Assembly: GCA_028688815.1 (NCBI GenBank)
Contig: JAQTXJ010000022.1
Span: 1-35,047, forward strand
Direction of reading: 5' to 3'
DNA length: 35,047 bases
DNA from: a bacterium
GTDB lineage: Bacteria > Hydrothermota > UBA3073 > JACQXS01 > JAQTXJ01
Of this stretch, positions 2,680-31,962 are shown one piece after another. The translations under genes and the position numbers were made by a program. A model generated the notes under the pieces. That model did not search any database. It was not told where the DNA came from and worked only from the letters and a program-made list of their open reading frames with translations. How positions within the stretch are numbered: the stretch's first letter is position 1; the number at the start of each line of letters is the position of its first letter.

Positions 2680-3702
2680 CTAGTTTATATGTTTTCTTTT
2701 TTTTAAACTTACTATAATTTCAAGCAATCCAAATAAAATAAAAAAATTAAAAACAAAGATAGCTATTCCTGCCTTTGTAGGTTTTTCTATCATTCTCAAT
2801 ATAAGAGGAGTTTTTTTATATTTTTTCCATATATTACTGTATTCTTTGAAAAGTGTTTCGTTTGTAATATTATATAAACTATCTAATAATTGAATATAGA
2901 TGTTGTGATATACTGCACCTGCAGGATGTTCAAGGATATCATAATAAGAGTACCCATTTTTATTATATCTATAAAGATTTTCTTTTAAACCAATAATGCC
3001 TTGGTCAAAAAGATACTTGGCATCCGAATTCTGGGTGTATTCATAGTATTCATATATCCCTAAAACTGTAAACATCATGCCATTTAGAACCATCGATTTT
3101 GTACACCCTTCATCTGCATATTCCTCATACCACCATCCGTTGTTTACTGTTTTATAAGTAACGCCCCCATCTTTAACTTCTACAAAGAAAGCATTTAACA
3201 ATTCTTTTGCACAATTTAAATACTTAATATCTTTTGTAAAATCGTAAGCTCTAGTTAACACTTGTATTGCTTGAGCCTGTGCCATTCCTGAACGCCAGGG
3301 AGAAGTTAAATTAAAGATTGGCCAGGGAAAATCATACTCCAAAATAGAATACTCCCCAAAAGGTTTTGAATTATCTACTAGCCAATTTGCACAATTAATA
3401 AATTCCCTTTTTTTTTCACACTCAAAAAATTCTATTGCGTGTTGACTAACTGTCACCGGGTTCCTTTGCTTACCAAACCCGTAATCTACAATGGGAATAC
3501 CTAAACTATCATACACAACTTTTATCCTAACCACACTTTTAAAATAAACCTTCCCAATTATTTTATATGATATGTCTTCAGTAAAATTAAATACCATAAG
3601 AGCACTAATTAAAGATAATATCAATATAATAAGATGTCTTTTTATATTAATCGGCATCCGCCATATTAAAATTTTCAGATGCTTTTTTATCATCTCTGAC
3701 AT
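2680..3702 (-). CDS. D-glucuronyl C5-epimerase C-terminal domain protein, membrane anchored
   Basis: 340 aa. Residues about 85-300 match the D-glucuronyl C5-epimerase C-terminal family (alpha/alpha toroid): PWRSGMAQAQAIQVLTRAYD (135-154), NGWWYEEYADEG (188-199), VLNGMMFTVLGIYEYYEY (205-222), YSYYDILEHPAG (251-262) and YHNIYIQLL (265-273). Several aromatic and acidic residues of the family active-site cleft are in these blocks. The protein has a hydrophobic N-terminal anchor at about 24-42 and a second membrane segment at about 311-331, so the catalytic domain should be exported between two anchors. The family epimerises glucuronate to iduronate in glycosaminoglycans in animals; bacterial members are less well known. 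No polysaccharide polymerase is nearby except a GT-C enzyme 3 kb away. A second possible ATG lies three codons downstream; no strong RBS is visible for either. Confidence 0.8.
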   Translation of the reverse strand: MSEMIKKHLKILIWRMPINIKRHLIILILSLISALMVFNFTEDISYKIIGKVYFKSVVRIKVVYDSLGIPIVDYGFGKQRNPVTVSQHAIEFFECEKKREFINCANWLVDNSKPFGEYSILEYDFPWPIFNLTSPWRSGMAQAQAIQVLTRAYDFTKDIKYLNCAKELLNAFFVEVKDGGVTYKTVNNGWWYEEYADEGCTKSMVLNGMMFTVLGIYEYYEYTQNSDAKYLFDQGIIGLKENLYRYNKNGYSYYDILEHPAGAVYHNIYIQLLDSLYNITNETLFKEYSNIWKKYKKTPLILRMIEKPTKAGIAIFVFNFFILFGLLEIIVSLKKRKHIN

Positions 3703-23391: not shown

Positions 23392-23405
23392 GCCAACATA
23401 TTGGC
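23392..23405 (+). other. Leader hairpin GCCAA-CATA-TTGGC
   Basis: A 5-bp stem with a 4-nt loop directly before the RBS region (AAAAGGG, about 23408-23413) of the 23422 gene. It may influence translation initiation. Confidence 0.35.
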
Positions 23406-23421
23406 GGAAAAGGGCGGGGAG

Positions 23422-25032
23422 ATGATAAGCGTAACAAAATACATTATAGGGACGATGTTTCTTGTAACAAATATAAGTTTTTGTATGGCACAAGGCAACA
23501 AAGAATACTGCATTGGGAAAACTCTTTCTCCTCAGTATTACAGCCTTGCTGCAAAAGATTCCGGATATAATATGGACCAAACCCTTTCGGATGGAGCACA
23601 GAGAAACACAATCGCTTTTGATGGTTTGGCTTTTCTTACCGGAAGCTTAGGTTCGCAGTCTTTTCTTCCTCCCGGGAAAGTAGCGGATTTCTCCGGATTT
23701 CAGTACTTGCGTGACAACGACCCTACCAGTATGGGACACAATACGGCATTTGTAACAATAATTTCCAACAATGTTCTCCATATTCTAACCGCGGGACAGA
23801 TTAATACTCTGATAGCAAGCGCCCAAAACCAGGCAAGTCTTATTAATGACTATGCATATTTCAGATTTCCTATGATGAAGGCGTTCCGTCGCCTTTTAGA
23901 TGGAGACGTGCCTGTAGGAAGTAAAGGATTGAATAAAAGTGTGGTTATGGAGTATTCGGGACAATTATACCGCATTGATGGACAAATCAGTTACAATCGT
24001 GAAAAATTATTTGGAGAAATTTTAAATTCTATGACAATAGGACAAAAGGCAGCGCTGGATAATTTGAAAACTTTTGGCCGGATAGGTAAGTGGGATAGCA
24101 CTCTTATAAATCCTGTAGACACTTTACATCTTCCTCGTGAGATAGGCCAAGGCTTAATGACCTATGCAACTGAGATGTACAGCTGGTATGCAGGTTCTGT
24201 TGATGCAGACGTTTATTTTTGTCCGGAACGGCAGGGAGATTGCTTTGGGGGATTTTACTTAAAAGACTGGCCGGCTATGGGTAATCCAAACTACAGTATA
24301 AACGAACAATTGACGGCAACGACAGGACAGGATTTTCTGTCGGTTCTTAATGGTTCGCAGGCTCCTCTGGTAACAGGACTGGTAGATACTCAGAAAGTTG
24401 ATTCATTTTTGTACCATATTGTTGATAGAAGACATGACATATCCGTAGAATTAAGAAAATTTATGACAGTAGGAATTGCTGACAGCGATACGGTATTGAA
24501 TTTATCTGAAAAGTATGGGGAGCTGGATGGAGCACTTTGTTATTATTATGCGACTTATTTTACCAAAGTGTGGGAAACTCTTGACAGCACGCAGAAGCAG
24601 AAAATAAAAGCTATAGCTGATTCCCTTGGCTATTTACCGCCTCCATCAAATGTGGCGTTTTTGTACTCTGATTCAACAAGTATGCCTTCTATCGGAAACA
24701 CAGATTCCTTTTTTGTATTAGCCGCCGTAGAGGAACAAAAAACCGGAATGTCTAAAAGTATAATGTTGAACCAAAATTACCCAAACCCGTCAAAATATGG
24801 GATTTCTATTGAGTATCAGATACCAAAGGAAAGTTATGTCTCCCTTTGTGTTTATGATAAAGCCGGAATTTTAGTGAAAACAGTAATTACTGGAAATTTA
24901 ACCCCGGGCAGTTACACGGCTACATGGGACAGGATGAATACGCAGAATAAAAGAGTCCCCTCAGGTATATATTTCTATAGGTTAAAAACCGATAGTAATA
25001 CCCTTACTAAGAAAATGATTTTGTTAGACTAA
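23422..25032 (+). CDS. Secreted protein of unknown function with T9SS sorting domain
   Basis: 536 aa from ATG 23422, which directly yields a signal peptide (MISVTKYIIGTMFLVTNISF, cleavage after CMA). The frame stays open a few codons upstream, but those codons form the RBS (AAGGG, then GGGGAG). The body (about 25-440) is soluble and mostly helical-looking, with no motif I recognise; it has scattered Cys residues and phrases such as RFPMMKAFRRLLDGDVP and YYYATYFTKVWETLDSTQKQK. The last about 85 residues (LNQNYPNPSKYGISIEYQIP; GSYTATWD; SGIYFYRLKTDSNTLTKKMIL) form a classic FlgD/Por-type sorting domain of the NYPNP class. It is divergent from the T9SS subtilase, so shared regulation is possible. 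Confidence 0.82.
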   Translation: MISVTKYIIGTMFLVTNISFCMAQGNKEYCIGKTLSPQYYSLAAKDSGYNMDQTLSDGAQRNTIAFDGLAFLTGSLGSQSFLPPGKVADFSGFQYLRDNDPTSMGHNTAFVTIISNNVLHILTAGQINTLIASAQNQASLINDYAYFRFPMMKAFRRLLDGDVPVGSKGLNKSVVMEYSGQLYRIDGQISYNREKLFGEILNSMTIGQKAALDNLKTFGRIGKWDSTLINPVDTLHLPREIGQGLMTYATEMYSWYAGSVDADVYFCPERQGDCFGGFYLKDWPAMGNPNYSINEQLTATTGQDFLSVLNGSQAPLVTGLVDTQKVDSFLYHIVDRRHDISVELRKFMTVGIADSDTVLNLSEKYGELDGALCYYYATYFTKVWETLDSTQKQKIKAIADSLGYLPPPSNVAFLYSDSTSMPSIGNTDSFFVLAAVEEQKTGMSKSIMLNQNYPNPSKYGISIEYQIPKESYVSLCVYDKAGILVKTVITGNLTPGSYTATWDRMNTQNKRVPSGIYFYRLKTDSNTLTKKMILLD

Positions 25033-25071
25033 CTAATGCATACGGCTTCCAATTCTAAAAAAATTCCTATC

Positions 25072-25098
25072 TTGACAAACAACCATTTTTCTTATACT
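25072..25098 (+). promoter_or_regulatory. Promoter of the Ig-like lipoprotein gene
   Basis: TTGACA (25072-25077), 15 nt, TATACT (25093-25098); TACTAA (25095-25100) gives a 17-nt spacer. It lies inside the upstream extension of the reading frame, which rules out the start at 25036. The ATG at 25108 follows 9 nt later with no RBS. Confidence 0.65.
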
Positions 25099-25107
25099 AA
25101 TACTCTA

Positions 25108-25737
25108 ATGTTGAAAAGTTATTTTCTCCTATCTGTTTTTTTCTTAGTCGTATTGTTAACAGGTTGTAAAAGCAGAGATACTGAATCTCCCGAAGTAATT
25201 ATAACCTATCCGCCAAACAACATATATATAGAAGACACTCTCGCAATAAAAGCAGAAGCGATTGATAATATAAAAATTAAAAGAGTTGAATTCTATATAG
25301 ATGGCGACCTTTTCTCAACCGATACAACTGCCCCTTATTCCTCTATTCGCTCCGCGAACAGTAATTCTAGTGCCCATACTATCTTCGCCAAAGCTTACGA
25401 CAACGAAGACAATTACGGGCTTTCCGATGTAGTTACCGTCTATCTTTTGGATACCACAGATACCGAATCACCTATGATTGCGATAACAACCCCCGCATCC
25501 GGAGCTGTCGTAACCGGTACGGTTGAAGTTAAAACCGAGACATCAGACAACAAAGATGTATCAAAAGTCGTATTTTATGTCGACGGAGACTCTATGTCCA
25601 CATCCACGACCAAGCCTTTTACATATTTATGGGATACTATGCCTCTACCCAACAACTCCTACACCATATTGGCAAAAGCTTATGACCCAAGTAACAATTG
25701 GGCAAACTCAATGGTTACGGTAAGAGTTCTGCATTAA
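25108..25737 (+). CDS. Lipoprotein with two bacterial Ig-like (Big_7) domains
   Basis: 209 aa from ATG 25108. This start gives a perfect lipoprotein signal (MLKSYFLLSVFFLVVLLTGC, lipobox LTGC, Cys20), and the promoter lies just upstream; the longer frame from 25036 would run through that promoter. Two tandem Ig-like repeats of about 85-90 residues follow, each with the pattern SP-x-I-x-I-x-x-P, then D-x-x-x-I/V-x-x-V-x-F-Y-I/V-D-G-D, then A-K-A-Y-D (residues about 28-112 and 120-209), characteristic of the Big_7 type. It is a cell-surface or periplasmic adhesion or structural module, acylated by Lnt. The next gene starts on its stop (TAATG). Confidence 0.85.
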   Translation: MLKSYFLLSVFFLVVLLTGCKSRDTESPEVIITYPPNNIYIEDTLAIKAEAIDNIKIKRVEFYIDGDLFSTDTTAPYSSIRSANSNSSAHTIFAKAYDNEDNYGLSDVVTVYLLDTTDTESPMIAITTPASGAVVTGTVEVKTETSDNKDVSKVVFYVDGDSMSTSTTKPFTYLWDTMPLPNNSYTILAKAYDPSNNWANSMVTVRVLH

Positions 25738-26519
25738 TGTTTATCCATTTTTTAATAACCCTACTCTCTCCACAGTTTTATTTTACTCACAGTAATATTC
25801 GCGCATTCCCGGACACATCAATGAATATCTCGGGTAACTCAATTTCTACCTACTGGACAATGGATTATAAAAAAAACTATTTCTCATTTACTTATGATAA
25901 TTACTCGGAAAACTGGCAACCAAAAGTTTTTAGGCAAGATATGTTCTCATTGGGATATAGCAGAGAAATACTACATTTAATGGGAATAAGAATTGTCGGA
26001 TTCCATATATTGGATTCATACGAAAATACCTCTACAACTCTCAGTACCCGTCTGCTTTATGGTTATAATCCAATTTACACACTTGGGTATGCATTCTCCT
26101 GCTATATAAGGCAATATTGGGATGGAAAAATATCTTATGCCGTACACCGGATCAATCCTGAACTCAGATTCTTACTCTATAAAAAAATATGGATTATGCC
26201 GGGAGTTTCTTACACAATTGCAGAAAGTGAAAAATATTTTTCTTTCCCTCTTACCGTATCTTCAAATATACTGTATGATGGAAGTTTCTGGACAAAATTC
26301 AATATGGAAATAAACGCAGCTTATGGAAAAGGTTTTTACAACGTAGATGACAGGCTCTTAATAATTAATAACCGCCCCGATATAGAAAAAATGAAAATCG
26401 CAGGAAAAATTAAATATGACTTCAATAAAAGAATCCAATTAATAGGTGTTGGCGGAAAAGATGTTTTCGAGATATACGATATAACCTACTGTTCAATAGG
26501 GTTAAAAATTAACATTTGA
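25737..26519 (+). CDS. Putative outer-membrane beta-barrel protein
   Basis: 260 aa from ATG 25737, whose A is shared with the TAA of the lipoprotein gene. The frame extends further upstream only through the lipoprotein codons. A signal-like N-terminus (MFIHFLITLLSPQFYFTHSN) is followed by amphipathic aromatic-rich strands (STYWTMDYKKNYFSFTYDNY, STRLLYGYNPIYTLGYAFSC, KIWIMPGVSYTIAE, FSFPLTVSSNILYD, WTKFNMEINAAYGKG, KIAGKIKYDFNKRIQLIGVG, DITYCSIGLKINI), as in a 10-12-strand barrel. The family is not recognised. It is coupled to the Ig-like lipoprotein, so the two may form one surface assembly; that is inference. Confidence 0.68.
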   Translation: MFIHFLITLLSPQFYFTHSNIRAFPDTSMNISGNSISTYWTMDYKKNYFSFTYDNYSENWQPKVFRQDMFSLGYSREILHLMGIRIVGFHILDSYENTSTTLSTRLLYGYNPIYTLGYAFSCYIRQYWDGKISYAVHRINPELRFLLYKKIWIMPGVSYTIAESEKYFSFPLTVSSNILYDGSFWTKFNMEINAAYGKGFYNVDDRLLIINNRPDIEKMKIAGKIKYDFNKRIQLIGVGGKDVFEIYDITYCSIGLKINI

Positions 26520-26543
26520 CATTTATGGAACTTTTTCTACAGA
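26516..26543 (+). promoter_or_regulatory. Promoter of the PqqD/ATP-grasp operon
   Basis: TTGACA (26516-26521, overlapping the upstream stop), 16 nt, TACAGA (26538-26543; a weak -10). A leader of about 25 nt with a strong RBS AAAGGAGG (26562-26569) follows. Confidence 0.45.
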
Positions 26544-26574
26544 ATATGTATCTAACTATAAAAAGGAGGAAAAT

Positions 26575-27006
26575 ATGTTAAAAAAATCTATTGCTGTTTG
26601 TTGTTTGCTTTTTACTTCATTTGTAACCTATGCCCAGAATTCTGTAAAAGTAACTATTGAATACAAAGAAGGCATTCCTGCCAGTATATTAGTATCGGGC
26701 GTTGTTGATAAAAACGAATGGCTGGGAGTTTCTTTATACCCCGCAACAGTCACAGATGCAACAAAAGAAGGCCACCATATAACAAGAGAAATCAAAAAGG
26801 GTAATTTCATAGAAGCTTTTGCAATTGACAATAAACTCGCATCCCAATACGGATCATCTTACGAAATAGCACTATGGAGTAAGAAAATAGAGAAAAAAGA
26901 CTGCACAATACAAGATTGCTACTGGTGCCAACAAAGAGGTTACCATCTCGAAGATGCTGCTTTCTACCAGACAGGATATTTTAATACTATTAAAAATGTA
27001 AAATAA
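26575..27006 (+). CDS. Small exported protein with C-terminal Cys motif
   Basis: 143 aa, no family recognised. A signal peptide (MLKKSIAVCCLLFTSFVTYA, cleavage before QN) is followed by a short domain that reads as beta strands (VKVTIEYKEGIPASILVSGV; NEWLGVSLYPATV; REIKKGNFIEAFAIDN; YEIALWSKKI). The C-terminal region is rich in Cys and aromatics (DCTIQDCYWCQQRGYH, Cys110, Cys115, Cys118; then FYQTGYFN). It has the strongest RBS of the operon (AAAGGAGG, 5 nt before ATG) and is the first of five genes. The PqqD-like gene starts 9 nt after its stop, with the RBS overlapping the stop codon. It could be the substrate or a periplasmic partner of the downstream enzymes. The signal peptide argues against a simple cytoplasmic RiPP precursor. 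Confidence 0.78.
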   Translation: MLKKSIAVCCLLFTSFVTYAQNSVKVTIEYKEGIPASILVSGVVDKNEWLGVSLYPATVTDATKEGHHITREIKKGNFIEAFAIDNKLASQYGSSYEIALWSKKIEKKDCTIQDCYWCQQRGYHLEDAAFYQTGYFNTIKNVK

Positions 27007-27015
27007 GGAGGGTTT

Positions 27016-27300
27016 ATGGGCACTAATGACAATTTCAAAAGACTCGCTATGAGTGAAAATGGGTTCTTATTTGACCCGCAAACCGGTCACAGTTACACGG
27101 TTAATGAAATTAGTATGGAAATCCTGAGCTGTTTAAAAAAAGGAATGGATGAACCGGGAATAATTAAACATATTATGGATAACTATGATGTCACAGAAGA
27201 CCAGATAAAAAGAGATTATAACTCTTTTATCGTTAAATTAAAACAATACAGTTTATATGAAGAAACCGATAAAGAGTTAGCCAAAAAATTTAAAAAATAA
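27016..27300 (+). CDS. PqqD family protein (RRE-like peptide chaperone)
   Basis: 94 aa. The PqqD fold signature is clear: RLAMSENGFLFDPQTGHSYT then VNEISMEILSCLKKG (about 9-43), followed by EPGIIKHIMDNYDVTEDQIK and DYNSFIVKLKQYSLYEE (about 47-82). PqqD-type proteins bind leader peptides and present them to modifying enzymes. No radical SAM partner, the usual companion of PqqD, is present here; instead an ATP-grasp gene starts 1 nt after the stop. No phosphopantetheine attachment motif (DSL) is seen, so it is not an acyl carrier protein. RBS AAGGAGG lies 5 nt before the ATG. Confidence 0.85.
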   Translation: MGTNDNFKRLAMSENGFLFDPQTGHSYTVNEISMEILSCLKKGMDEPGIIKHIMDNYDVTEDQIKRDYNSFIVKLKQYSLYEETDKELAKKFKK

Positions 27301-27301
27301 A

Positions 27302-28408
27302 ATGACTATCCCAAAAGAACTTGTAATTGCAGTAACTGGTTTAAATGCAGGTGAAAACCCGCAACCCGGCGTCCCTGTTATCAGATCTCTTAGAAAAGCA
27401 GGATTTACGGGTAAAATAATAGGTCTTGTTTATGATTCTTTTGAATCCGGAATTTATGCGCCGGATATGGCAGATGAAGTTTATGAAATGCCTTATCCTT
27501 CGGAAGGCGCTGAAGCAATAATGGCAAGGCTTGAATACATAATGAGCGTACACACAAAAATAGACGTTCTTGTCCCAACCCTTGACTCCGAATTATTACC
27601 TTATATCAGCATCGAGAATAAACTGAAATCTTATGGGATAAAAATGTACCTCCCCACAAGAGAACAATTTATGATGCGGGATAAAACAGAACTCGGGAAA
27701 TTGAACGAAAAATTCGGCATACTAACTCCTAAAGTTTTACTAATAAACGATACCGCACAAGCTTATAAAATTCCGGGAAAAATGACACTGCCTGTTATGG
27801 TAAAAGGTCGATTCTACGAAGCTTATAAAGCCCATAATACGGAAGAAATCACAAAATATTTTAACTCCCTGCGGGCCAAATGGGGATTACCTATTATAAT
27901 CCAGGAATTTCTTGCAGGCGAAGAATATAATGTATCTGCAATCGGAGACGGAAAAGGAAATATTGTATGCAGTATTCCTATCAAAAAAACCGTTGTAACC
28001 GAAAAAGGAAAAGGCTTTGCTGCTGTTGTTATTAAAGATGCTACACTGGACAAATTTACAAAAAATATAATGAAAAGTCTCAAATGGCGCGGTCCTTTGG
28101 AACTCGAAATATTAAAATCCAATAAAGACAAACAATATTACTTGCTGGAAATAAATCCACGCCTTCCCGCATGGATAGGTCTCGCTATAGGAGCAGGCCA
28201 AAATATTCCTGAAATACTTGTAAAACTTGCACTTGGCGAAAAAATCACCCCGTTAAAAAAATATACTGTAGGTAAAATATTTGTCCGACATAGCGAGGAT
28301 ATAATATTGGACATTGCTACAATGGGCGAACTAACTTCCATAGGAGAACTACACGATTTAAGAACAAAACCGGTAACTAAAAGAAAAAGCAAATTTATGG
28401 ACAATTAA
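27302..28408 (+). CDS. ATP-grasp domain carboxylate-amine ligase-like protein
   Basis: 368 aa. The pre-ATP-grasp Rossmann-like domain (about 1-115: LVIAVTGLNAGENPQPGVPV, IDVLVPTLDSELLPYI) precedes the ATP-grasp core. TLPVMVKGRFYEAYKAH (162-178) carries the ATP-binding Lys168; then PIIIQEFLAGEEYNVSAIGD (197-216), LELEILKS (266-273) and the Mg-binding LLEINPRLPAWIG (281-293; Glu283, Asn285, Arg287). The architecture is CarB/PylC-like, which usually joins an amino acid to an amine or protein through an acyl phosphate. The substrate is unknown. No RBS is visible; the ATG lies 1 nt after the PqqD-like stop (TAAAATG), so it is translationally coupled. The PLP decarboxylase follows after 11 nt. Confidence 0.88.
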   Translation: MTIPKELVIAVTGLNAGENPQPGVPVIRSLRKAGFTGKIIGLVYDSFESGIYAPDMADEVYEMPYPSEGAEAIMARLEYIMSVHTKIDVLVPTLDSELLPYISIENKLKSYGIKMYLPTREQFMMRDKTELGKLNEKFGILTPKVLLINDTAQAYKIPGKMTLPVMVKGRFYEAYKAHNTEEITKYFNSLRAKWGLPIIIQEFLAGEEYNVSAIGDGKGNIVCSIPIKKTVVTEKGKGFAAVVIKDATLDKFTKNIMKSLKWRGPLELEILKSNKDKQYYLLEINPRLPAWIGLAIGAGQNIPEILVKLALGEKITPLKKYTVGKIFVRHSEDIILDIATMGELTSIGELHDLRTKPVTKRKSKFMDN

Positions 28409-28419
28409 GGAGGCTAATT

Positions 28420-29769
28420 ATGGCTAAAAAATCTTATTACGCACCGACTATTGAGAGAAAAGTTGCAGGTGCACCAGGAAAATTCGCAACCAGTGTCCCT
28501 TCCTACCAGGATAATATAGATGACATCCCAATAAAAGCACTAATTGAGAACTACGGCTCTCCTTTATTTGTATTCTCGGAAAAATCTATCAGATGGAAAT
28601 TCAAAGAAGCACAAAGGGCATTTAGCCTTCATTATCCTAATGTCAAATTCGGATGGTCATACAAAACAAATTATCTTCAGGCAATTTGTGCCACATTCCA
28701 TCAGGAAGGTGCATGGGCAGAAGTAGTTAGTGGAATGGAATACGAAAGAGCCAGATTACTCGGAATACCCGGTAAAAAAATTATATTCAATGGACCAAGC
28801 AAAACTAAAAACGACTTACTAAAAGCAGTTTCTGAAGAGGCAACTATAAATATTGATCACCTCGATGAACTATTTTTACTTGAAGAAATAGCCGTAGAAC
28901 TCCGCAAAAAACCACGCGTAGGGGTACGCGTAAATATGGATACCGGAATTTACCCGCAGTGGAGCAGATTCGGCTTTAATTACGAAAACAGAGAAGCATA
29001 CAGGGCAGTTCAGAGAATCGTAACCGGAAATAAACTTGAACTCATAGGGTTACACACACATATAGGAACTTTTATATTGGAACCAAACGCTTATTACATA
29101 GCCGCTGCAAAACTACTTAATTTGGCCGGTTATATTGAAACTGATTTTGGAATTACTGTACAATTCATAGACCTTGGAGGCGGAATCGCTTCAAATAATA
29201 CCTTATGTGAACAATATTTACCCGGGGATATAGCTTCACCCAATATAGAACAATATGCTGAAGCCGTTGGAAAAGCTTTTAACGAATCGCCTTTCTGCAG
29301 AAAAAACCAGCCTACCCTATTCCTTGAAACAGGAAGAGCATTAATAGATGAAGCGGGTTATTTAGTATCTTCCGTTATAGGTAAAAAAACTCTTGTTGAT
29401 GGACAAAAAGCATTAATATTGGATGCGGGCGTTAATATATTGTACACATCTAACTGGTACAAACATAAATTTACTCCTGCACAACCAATCACGGGAACAA
29501 TAGAAAATACGGTAATCTATGGACCATTATGTATGAATATTGACGTTATGAGACAGGGCATAAGATTTCCTGACTTAAAAATCGGAGATGCTGTCATCAT
29601 ATCTCCTGTAGGCGCATACAATGTGACTCAGTGGATGCAGTTTATCACTTATCGTCCGAATGTTGTACTTATTACCGTAAACGGCGATGTTGAAATAATA
29701 CGCGAAAAAGAAACTTTGAAAGACATACTTCACAAAGAAAAATTGCCAAAACACTTAAACCTGTCATAA
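28420..29769 (+). CDS. Fold-type III PLP-dependent decarboxylase (DapDC/LysA-like)
   Basis: 449 aa. Alanine-racemase-like barrel: PLP Lys82 in FGWSYKTNYLQAI (where diaminopimelate decarboxylase has YAxKAN), LIGLHTHIGTF (208-218, His212/His214), the phosphate loop DLGGGIAS (251-258) and LETGRALIDEAGYLV (302-316, Arg306). The C-terminal beta domain has VIYGPLCMNIDV (365-376, catalytic Cys371) and VGAYNVTQWMQF (397-408, Tyr400). The usual GPxCESGD motif is CMNID here: the Cys and last Asp are kept but the Glu is Met, and the Arg/Glu specificity positions differ. It is therefore probably an amino-acid decarboxylase with a substrate other than meso-diaminopimelate. BtrK of butirosin synthesis, which decarboxylates a carrier-bound amino acid, is a precedent in this fold. 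An N-terminal extension of about 35 residues precedes the barrel. RBS AAGGAGG lies 6 nt before the ATG. Confidence 0.88.
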   Translation: MAKKSYYAPTIERKVAGAPGKFATSVPSYQDNIDDIPIKALIENYGSPLFVFSEKSIRWKFKEAQRAFSLHYPNVKFGWSYKTNYLQAICATFHQEGAWAEVVSGMEYERARLLGIPGKKIIFNGPSKTKNDLLKAVSEEATINIDHLDELFLLEEIAVELRKKPRVGVRVNMDTGIYPQWSRFGFNYENREAYRAVQRIVTGNKLELIGLHTHIGTFILEPNAYYIAAAKLLNLAGYIETDFGITVQFIDLGGGIASNNTLCEQYLPGDIASPNIEQYAEAVGKAFNESPFCRKNQPTLFLETGRALIDEAGYLVSSVIGKKTLVDGQKALILDAGVNILYTSNWYKHKFTPAQPITGTIENTVIYGPLCMNIDVMRQGIRFPDLKIGDAVIISPVGAYNVTQWMQFITYRPNVVLITVNGDVEIIREKETLKDILHKEKLPKHLNLS

Positions 29770-29805
29770 TATCCGAATAGAGAATCACTCTTATTAGCTT
29801 TAGCT

Positions 29806-31962
29806 ATGGATAAAAATATAAAACTCAATTCGTTACTTCCTATTACCAACTCTTTTTTGCATTCTTATTCTATTATCTTATTCTCAAACAATCGCTGGCT
29901 TGGACTCATATTACTATTGGCAACTCTAAATGCTCCTCTTGTAGGTCTTTGCGGAGTAATCGGAACAATCACAGCCATTCTTATCGCAAGATTATTGAAT
30001 TTTACTCCCCCGAACGATAATTCAGGATTCCAGAGCTTCAACAGTTTGCTCGTGTCTTTAGGAATAGGCTATTTTTACCCGGGCACAGCAAGTGAAAGCT
30101 GGCTGTTTTTATTGTTTTTTATTATCCTGAGTTCAATTATCACAACTATGTTATCAATATCGCTCTCCCAGTTTTTTCGTTCACAATTGGCATTACCTTC
30201 TTTAAGCGTTCCTTTTATCATTATGGCTGTTTTAACCTGCTTATTCTATAATGAAATTCAAAGTTCCTTATCAAATCAGAATGTCCATCGCCTTTTAATT
30301 AATTGGAATCCTGCTTTACAAGGCTGGGTTTCCATATATCTCAAAAGCATAGGTGGTATCTTTTTCCAGCCAAATATTATAGGAGGAATGCTTATAGCGC
30401 TGGCAATTCTACTACATTCAAGAATCGCTTTTCTCCTTTCTTTAATAGGATTTGCAATGGGGTACTTGTTTTTACTCAACACCTCTTTCAACGAATTATC
30501 AATCATAATGGCAGGTTTTAATTTTATTTTAACTGCAATAGCCATAGGCGGAGTATTTTTTGTACCTTCTGTTTCATCTTTTATAATCGCAGCTATTACA
30601 AGCTGCGCAGGTGCATTCATAGGACTTTCTCTTGAGTATGTATTTGATGTTTTTAACATCCCGGTTTTAGCTATTCCTTTTAATTTTATCGTCCTTACCT
30701 TAATTTATGCATTCAGACTGCGAACTAAAAATTTACACCCTTATCTTATTGATTTTTTCTCCAATACACCGGAAGAAAGTCTTGAGTATTACCATTCAAA
30801 AATCATAAAAATATCTGAAGAAGGATTATACCCGGTTTACCTTCCATTTAATGGAGAATGGACGGTTACACAGGGATACAACGATGAACCGACTCACAAA
30901 TTACAGTGGGCTTATGCCTGGGATTTTGAAGTGCTGGACGAAAATAAATCAAAATTCAAAAATTCGGGCGGGGAACAAAAAGACTTCTATTGTTTTGATA
31001 AACCTGTTATTGCACCCATAAACGGCACTGTAGTAAAAATAATAAACAACATAGACGATAACCCGATAAACCACCTAAACACTAAAGACAATTGGGGGAA
31101 CTTAATTGTTCTTCAATATGCACCAAATATATTTGCATTGCTGTGTCACTTAAAAAAAGGCAGTATCAAAGTAGTAGTCGGACAATACGTGAAAACAGGC
31201 GAGATAATAGCGCAATGCGGGAATTCAGGACGCTCTGCCATTCCTCATTTACACCTGCAATTACAAACGACTTCTGAACCAGGTTCTCCTACAATTAAAG
31301 CCAATATCGTTAATTTCATAATTAAAAATACTTCCGATTTTATGCACTCCGGAATACCTAAAAAAGATGATACTGTCGTATCTCTGAAACCACAATTAAG
31401 ATTACAGGATATGCTGAAATTCAATTTGAATAATACTTATATGTTTAAAGTAACGGATTATTCGGGAAAAGATGAAAAAACCTTTGATGAAAAATGGACT
31501 ATAAAAGTAGATTTATGGGGCAATTTTTCTATCACCTCGAATAAAGAAAACACCTCAAATTTCACAATTTATAACGGCGTCTTTAGCCTATTGAATTTCA
31601 AAGGAACACATAATACGGCACTTTATACATTAAACCTAGCTTTTTCAAGATTCCCTTATGTTGAAGAAAAAACAATTAACTGGAGCAAAAAACTTCCTAT
31701 AAATTTACTTTTTTCTCATTTCTTAAAATCAGTTATAAACTTCTTCAGTTTTATAATTCCGCCACCTGAACTTATCGGGAAATACACTGCTGCTCACAAA
31801 ACAAATGGAGACATACATATAGACGGAAGAATCAGCATATTTTTCGGAAAACGCACATCTCAAAAATATAATACTAGTTGTGTCTTCAATCCCGAGAAAG
31901 GAATTCTCCAATTAGAACTAATAGAAAAAGGCAAACTCAAAATAAAAGCAGAAAGATTGTAA
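29806..31962 (+). CDS. Urea transporter-like channel fused to M23 metallopeptidase
   Basis: 718 aa. Residues about 5-305 hold roughly ten membrane segments with urea-transporter (UT) family text: APLVGLCGVIGTITAILIAR, FQSFNSLLVSLGIGYFY in the first half and AGFNFILTAIAIGGVFFVPS in the second half, the internal duplication of UT channels. Residues about 345-510 form a LytM/M23 domain: THKLQWAYAWDFEV with Zn ligands His364 and Asp373 (the H-x8-D spacing of one M23 subgroup), CFDKPVIAPINGTVVKI, LLCHLKKGSIKV, GQYVKTGEIIAQCGNSGRS and PHLHLQL with His481/His483. A C-terminal beta-rich domain (about 520-718) is unassigned. The peptidase should face the periplasm and cut peptidoglycan cross-links. 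It starts 36 nt after the decarboxylase gene; no RBS is visible. Confidence 0.88.
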   Translation: MDKNIKLNSLLPITNSFLHSYSIILFSNNRWLGLILLLATLNAPLVGLCGVIGTITAILIARLLNFTPPNDNSGFQSFNSLLVSLGIGYFYPGTASESWLFLLFFIILSSIITTMLSISLSQFFRSQLALPSLSVPFIIMAVLTCLFYNEIQSSLSNQNVHRLLINWNPALQGWVSIYLKSIGGIFFQPNIIGGMLIALAILLHSRIAFLLSLIGFAMGYLFLLNTSFNELSIIMAGFNFILTAIAIGGVFFVPSVSSFIIAAITSCAGAFIGLSLEYVFDVFNIPVLAIPFNFIVLTLIYAFRLRTKNLHPYLIDFFSNTPEESLEYYHSKIIKISEEGLYPVYLPFNGEWTVTQGYNDEPTHKLQWAYAWDFEVLDENKSKFKNSGGEQKDFYCFDKPVIAPINGTVVKIINNIDDNPINHLNTKDNWGNLIVLQYAPNIFALLCHLKKGSIKVVVGQYVKTGEIIAQCGNSGRSAIPHLHLQLQTTSEPGSPTIKANIVNFIIKNTSDFMHSGIPKKDDTVVSLKPQLRLQDMLKFNLNNTYMFKVTDYSGKDEKTFDEKWTIKVDLWGNFSITSNKENTSNFTIYNGVFSLLNFKGTHNTALYTLNLAFSRFPYVEEKTINWSKKLPINLLFSHFLKSVINFFSFIIPPPELIGKYTAAHKTNGDIHIDGRISIFFGKRTSQKYNTSCVFNPEKGILQLELIEKGKLKIKAERL

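Follow-up and report, generated by a model that had tools for sequence, protein, structure and literature searches.

A conserved cassette of PqqD-like protein, ATP-grasp ligase, PLP decarboxylase and UT-type channel in Hydrothermota and other bacteria, with a proposed role in biosynthesis and transport

Five neighboring genes on contig JAQTXJ010000022.1 (assembly GCA_028688815.1), from a bacterium of the Hydrothermota, were analyzed within a window comprising the whole 35,047-nucleotide stretch of DNA. They encode a small exported protein, a PqqD-like protein, an ATP-grasp ligase, a pyridoxal phosphate (PLP) decarboxylase of the AR fold, and a UT-type channel fused to an M23 peptidase domain (Table 1). 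An initial annotation, made from the sequence alone, had described five co-oriented genes with gaps of 9, 1, 11, and 36 nt. The coordinates of the open reading frames (ORFs) confirm this layout, with all five genes on the forward strand, and Pfam matches support the domain assignments for the last four. As that annotation had also stated, no radical SAM enzyme accompanies the set, since a search of the window's main ORFs returned no radical SAM domain. Its proposal of one promoter for the set fared less well: sigma-70-like matches occur at chance level (33 found versus 33.7 expected), and a single promoter is therefore not demonstrated.

Table 1. Features of the five-gene set, the decarboxylase tail, and the adjoining upstream genes in the window.
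Feature	Coordinates	Strand	Basis
PqqD-like protein, winged-helix domain of the RiPP-recognition type, proposed tether	27016..27300	+	Pfam PqqD 1.7e-11
ATP-grasp ligase	27302..28408	+	Pfam ATPgrasp_Ter 3e-13, CPSase-like
AR-fold (DapDC-type) PLP decarboxylase, FslC/FigC-related	28420..29769	+	AR-fold/DapDC Pfam 4.5e-29 and 2e-13
Leader-like motif Y-Y-A-P-T-I (aa 6-11 of the decarboxylase), proposed PqqD docking site	28435..28452	+	
Tail residue Lys21, which may be an attachment site or belong to the dock	28480..28482	+	K in 105/106 sequences outside the UT-SIR2 fusion clade
UT-type channel fused to M23 zinc-peptidase domain	29806..31962	+	Pfam UT aa 16-302 (2.4e-55), Peptidase_M23 aa 398-492 (1e-13)
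Exported Ig-like domain, lineage-restricted accessory	26575..27006	+	Cx4-7CxxCx5H motif; signal-peptide-like N-terminus
Putative outer-membrane protein	25698..26519	+	Position shared by G001 and G086; related genes in 9 loci, there at a median position downstream of UT-M23
Ig-like (Big_7) lipoprotein-like gene	25036..25737	+	Pfam Big_7 1e-33; adjoins the cluster in G086
Exported protein with C-terminal sorting domain	23401..25032	+	FlgD_ig / Por_Secre_tail; same position in G001

The operon is a genuine conserved system and not a chance arrangement. A scan of named GTDB genomes for the ATP-grasp protein yielded over 540 relatives; the 80 best loci were kept for gene-order counts. All four core genes stand on one strand in the order PqqD–ATP-grasp–decarboxylase–UT/M23 at 73 of the 80 loci, and the 80 records carry the labels Cloacimonadota, Bacteroidota, Ignavibacteria/Chlorobiota, Myxococcota, 'Deltaproteobacteria', Elusimicrobia, and Planctomycetota. 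The remaining seven comprise five records interrupted by contig ends or gaps, one locus whose decarboxylase sits on a separate contig (L095, genome G122), and one planctomycetotal locus (L091, genome G100) where the contig stops after the decarboxylase and PqqD is encoded on a separate contig. In every complete cluster, pqqD lies directly upstream of the ATP-grasp gene. Within an even sample of 248 Bacteroidota genomes, the ATP-grasp gene was detected in 23, and the set was complete in all 20 of those inspected; it was found in 17 of 294 Planctomycetota genomes. Rare co-occurrence of the genes is refuted by this fixed order in the 80 named loci and in the Bacteroidota sample. Pairwise gene distances within the cluster correlate (r 0.86–0.95), which is compatible with joint inheritance, and species relatedness also contributes to this correlation. 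No relatives were found in viral contigs and plasmids. No description of the gene combination was found in the open-access literature, and surveys of RiPP (ribosomally synthesized and post-translationally modified peptide) recognition elements (RREs) and of graspetides are silent on it; the claim of a new system in the initial annotation is thus upheld by conserved order and by the lack of a description in that literature. An apparent ATP-grasp–decarboxylase fusion in L100 proved to be an artifact of a run of N in the assembly, and apparent fusions in L207 and L209, which involve overlapping frames or are unclear, were not used.

Judged from its sequence, the decarboxylase is not LysA and groups with FslC/FigC. 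The FslC model matches it with an E-value of 7.8e-73 (245.7 bits, under the curated cut-off of 500) and the lysA model with 216.6 bits (under the curated cut-off of 297.9), and in none of six genomes is the latter cut-off exceeded. Its best match in the PDB is 7kh2, an N-citrylornithine decarboxylase. In a tree, the cluster decarboxylases and FigC form one supported group apart from LysA, within which FigC sits on a long branch and its exact place is unsure. The cluster enzymes share the signature SYKTN / DAGVNxLxTxxWY / GPLCMNID, in which the specificity-helix motif DAGVNxLxTxxWY stands in place of RPxxY. Their catalytic loop reads CM[NAQ]ID, whereas the LysA-type paralogues of the same genomes have CES(S/G)D or similar, where readable. 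Alignment shows that every cluster member has lost the diaminopimelate (DAP)-binding Arg as well as the acidic residue next to the catalytic Cys. Both are also replaced in FigC, whose H357 and R387 are positioned at the citryl group, and members of the AR-fold clade besides LysA and D-ODC are likely to act in specialized metabolite pathways (PMC7857480). In our alignment, T327, Y331, and M355 of FigC are retained in the cluster enzymes, whereas Ile and Gln stand at the citrate contacts H357 and R387; the conjugate is therefore probably not citryl, and we infer that the amino acid of the substrate is conjugated to another, less acidic partner. These residues agree with a scheme of ligation followed by decarboxylation, like that of BtrJ/BtrK, as had been suggested for the operon, or that of FigA/FigC. 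In genomes G000, G001, G086, and G079, no second DapDC/LysA was found above threshold; either their lysine supply is unexplained or the drafts are incomplete.

Approximately 30 residues at the N-terminus of the decarboxylase fall outside the LysA and FslC alignments, and this tail carries the leader-like motif. A match to [YWF]xxPx[ILVM] occurs at the same place in 110 of 111 aligned decarboxylases, compared with 4.8 expected from shuffled tails. Pro9 is conserved in 100% of the 106 sequences outside a clade in which the channel is fused to SIR2; Lys21, in the context G-x-x-N-K-F-G, is mostly R within that clade. Neither the stretches near the termini of the ATP-grasp and PqqD proteins nor the LysA-type paralogues contain the motif. 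According to an RRE survey, the PqqD, FusE, McjB, and StsC groups bind the sequence W/Y/LxxP/L/I (PMC12710340); for paeninodin, nanomolar affinity of the PqqD-like B1 protein for its leader is reported (PMC5067487). The nearest NCBIfam models for the PqqD-like protein of the window are WgkC and lasso-type PqqD chaperones.

The sole decarboxylase without the motif, at locus L205, comes from genome G486. There is no room for pqqD between the neighboring genes of that locus, and none was detected genome-wide with the cluster profile or with Pfam PqqD at E 0.1. When the Pfam PqqD search was applied to seven other genomes, six passed the cut-off, and in the seventh, G547, the cluster is broken by a contig end where pqqD would lie. 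Genome G100, with no pqqD at its locus, keeps the tail and encodes an orthologous PqqD on another contig. Only 12 genomes are available in the class of G486, and none of them was informative about further losses of PqqD. The joint loss of PqqD and the motif in G486 is the outcome expected if the partner of PqqD is the tail. Given that an RRE-type motif lies on the tail of the decarboxylase and is missing only in the genome without detectable PqqD, PqqD probably tethers the decarboxylase instead of a separate precursor. The initial annotation had proposed that PqqD presents the small exported protein; this part of its hypothesis is not sustained, as most cluster genomes lack that protein and the recognition motif, found on the decarboxylase, is lost only together with PqqD.

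At the channel protein, four metal-binding or catalytic residues of the M23 domain (H364, D373, H481, and H483 in the numbering of the 718-aa G001 orthologue) are 100% conserved in 60 relatives, and the domain is therefore probably active. One Bacteroidota genome encodes UT and M23 as two ORFs. In nine Planctomycetota loci, SIR2 replaces M23 as the UT partner, fused in eight and separate in one, and the SIR2 motifs GAGxS and NVDxLH and the catalytic His are intact wherever the ORF is complete. Planctomycetota examples in which the UT channel is joined to an intact SIR2 are L206:641-2476 and L203-L210. Because SIR2 needs nicotinamide adenine dinucleotide (NAD), the C-terminal end of the channel that carries M23 or SIR2 should face the cytosol, and the segment after the last UT helix, which is the most Lys/Arg-rich, agrees with this orientation. 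Among the same 60 relatives, the position aligned to E187 of dvUT, the slot Glu, is never Glu. The slot Gln is mostly retained, and the two Thr positions hold Ser or Ala/Ser/Val; we take this Gln, the Glu, and the two Thr to be the urea-slot residues of dvUT. Since the slot Glu is never kept and the slot Thr are replaced, the cargo is probably not urea.

The ATP-grasp protein was modeled with AlphaFold2 at a predicted local distance difference test (pLDDT) score of 87. Its nearest structures in the PDB are 2pn1, biotin carboxylase, and CarB, with the L-amino-acid ligase RizA at rank 15, and its invariant residues include the VKG lysine, E267/E269, and EINPR. With these components, the cassette appears to build a small amine-containing molecule by means of two physically coupled enzymes and to pass it through a modified urea-type channel. 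Going by its family, the ATP-grasp ligase would join an amino acid to an acceptor via an amide bond, and the FigC-clade decarboxylase, going by its residues, would take the carboxyl off the conjugated and not the free amino acid. The PqqD-like tether would bind the leader-like tail of the decarboxylase and hold the enzyme to the ligase or to the acceptor of the ligase. The hydrolase at the cytosolic end of the channel (M23 in the window, SIR2 in some Planctomycetota) would then cut the amide and release a product, probably not urea, for passage through the UT-type channel. Beyond the inner membrane, this product may be handled by the exported Ig-like protein or by a TPR protein together with an outer-membrane barrel. 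We infer the order of these reactions and the direction of transport, and we advance conjugation, decarboxylation of the conjugate, release, and channel passage tentatively, as an account that falls somewhat short of probable.

Several points weigh against this biosynthesis-and-transport cassette. The topology of the UT domain is based on homology and charge, and M23 peptidases are normally periplasmic. The joint loss of PqqD and the tail motif was seen once, in one draft genome, and the tail could bind something other than PqqD. Uptake could just as well be the function of the exported TPR, barrel, and Ig-like components. In the four genomes with no other DapDC above threshold, a role of the decarboxylase in lysine supply is not formally excluded.

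The small exported protein matches no Pfam or NCBIfam family. Its AlphaFold2 model is an Ig-like beta-sandwich (pLDDT 91.5), and a fold search with this domain returned nothing below E 1e-3. Three conserved Cys and one His form a possible metal site. Homologues, with the domain either single or tripled, were found solely next to this cluster: in the window lineage and in G086, G100, G355, and G455. The domain is repeated three times per protein in two Planctomycetota (L091:4945-7728; L197:8963-11182), and G100 encodes two such proteins of three copies each. Found in 2 of the 33 cluster genomes searched, the protein is accessory and not core; as a precursor it was set aside because it is missing from most clusters.

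Upstream of the five-gene set, three further co-oriented genes (23401-26519) are tightly spaced. In G086, a relative whose ATP-grasp is 62% identical to that of the window, counterparts of the Big_7 gene and the putative outer-membrane gene are kept directly upstream of the small exported gene. The outer-membrane gene is likely a member of the same operon, the Big_7 gene a probable member in the window lineage, and the exported protein with a sorting domain a possible one. In other genomes, the set usually runs on past UT/M23, as a rule with an overlap of a few bases, into a TPR/outer-membrane-barrel-like protein and a TPR protein of approximately 210 aa. In Planctomycetota, L205-L210 carry a second, divergent ATP-grasp gene and a large exported TPR protein (810 aa) between the first ATP-grasp gene and the decarboxylase. 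In approximately 23 Bacteroidota loci (L038-L058 and others), an AraC-type regulator with an N-terminal HMA-like domain lies directly upstream of pqqD; metal sensing by this regulator was set aside, as the CxxC of its HMA-like domain is often incomplete. An Rfam scan of the window identified two tRNAs and nothing else, and a D-glucuronyl C5-epimerase C-terminal domain (Pfam 2e-45) is encoded at 2680-3702 on the reverse strand.

The leader-like tail also allows a bolder explanation, in which a RiPP 'precursor peptide' has become fused to its tailoring enzyme. The decarboxylase, with its own leader and held by the PqqD-type protein, would act on an amino acid loaded either on its own tail or on the bound ligase, and the channel-linked M23 or SIR2 deacylase would release the product. 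We consider this unlikely, and we consider improbable its stricter form, in which the tail itself is the precursor: PqqD would present it, the ATP-grasp enzyme would charge Lys21 (for example with gamma-linked glutamate), the PLP domain would decarboxylate in place, and M23 or SIR2 would strip the product off. A YxxP sequence followed by a nearly invariant K, the membership of SIR2 in a lysine-deacylase family, the precedent of BtrI/J/K, and the lack of any other small conserved ORF adjoining the cluster all suit this form. However, Lys21 cannot be the acceptor in the UT-SIR2 clusters because it is replaced there, mostly by Arg, which also excludes it as a universal SIR2 substrate, and G486, without PqqD, still has an otherwise intact set. 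A shade less probable again is ordinary RiPP logic, in which PqqD delivers a separate peptide, either the exported Ig-like protein or an unlinked precursor, to the ATP-grasp enzyme and the decarboxylase. PqqD does belong to the RRE-type families, as its Pfam match indicates, and the Ig-like protein adjoins the cluster wherever it is found, tripled in two Planctomycetota. Its rarity among cluster genomes, its signal peptide, and its predicted folding as a domain nevertheless speak against such a role, and no conserved small ORF of at least 45 aa was found beside pqqD across the 80 loci, shorter ORFs lying outside the search.

Other explanations start from the metabolic side. A cluster that makes a metal chelator, with the Cys/His-rich exported protein and the outer-membrane barrel handling the metal, would accord with the siderophore roles of the related AR-fold enzymes FigC, SbnH, and AcsE, with the Cys/His motif, and with the HMA-containing AraC-type regulators of Bacteroidota. 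We regard it as rather unlikely, since NIS synthetase, TonB receptor, and MFS exporter genes are not recurrent in the neighborhoods, the citrate-contact residues are missing from the decarboxylase, and many of the HMA-like domains lack a complete CxxC. Uptake and breakdown, with the channel importing an amide, M23 or SIR2 hydrolyzing it, and the enzymes assimilating the products, draws on the passive nature of UT channels and on the fusion of hydrolase and channel; a ligase that consumes ATP and a decarboxylase whose clade is biosynthetic are ill-suited to a simple catabolic route, which makes this quite improbable. The least credible is the alternative raised in the initial annotation, salvage of peptidoglycan or DAP, in which M23 would liberate cell-wall peptides and the decarboxylase would use DAP. 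The zinc site of M23 is complete, the fold is that of DapDC, and some genomes have no other DapDC. Nevertheless, the LysA specificity residues, including those that bind DAP, are lost in every member, LysA-type paralogues coexist with the cluster in 7 of 13 genomes, and M23 is exchanged elsewhere for the NAD-dependent SIR2, an exchange that argues against peptidoglycan remodeling; this alternative is therefore disfavored.

The proposed biosynthesis-and-transport cassette was compared with several described systems. In the rhizoferrin system, FigA/FigC (FslA/FslC), an amino acid is, as proposed here, conjugated and then decarboxylated by the nearest characterized relative of our decarboxylase, and the T327/Y331/M355 pocket is common to both. 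However, the rhizoferrin ligase is an NIS synthetase and not an ATP-grasp enzyme, its citrate contacts are not kept here, and the system has no PqqD, UT, or M23. Butirosin synthesis by BtrI/BtrJ/BtrK resembles the cassette in using an ATP-grasp ligase and an AR-fold decarboxylase on a carrier-bound amino acid, but BtrK is a more distant relative and the pathway needs an acyl-carrier protein; no carrier domain was found in the scanned cluster proteins, and besides pqqD there is no recurrent gene of that size. The PqqD and lasso-peptide B1 RREs offer a parallel in the pairing of a PqqD-family protein with a YxxP-type recognition sequence, whereas here this sequence is on an enzyme tail and not on a precursor peptide, and radical SAM, lasso cyclase, and B2 protease are lacking. 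The UT fold aligns over the whole channel with dvUT, the bacterial urea channel, from which the cassette protein differs in its unconserved slot Glu and Thr residues and in its fusion to M23 or SIR2.

The same gene order spans many phyla of environmental bacteria, from Cloacimonadota and Bacteroidota to Myxococcota, Elusimicrobia, and Planctomycetota, and a cassette so maintained must be useful to its hosts. If the proposed mechanism is true, PqqD-type recognition domains would extend from peptide chaperones to enzyme tethers, a claim that the tail motif makes testable with two small protein pieces. It would also give M23 peptidases a cytosolic role, alongside a SIR2–channel fusion, and the urea-channel fold would have been adapted to other cargo.

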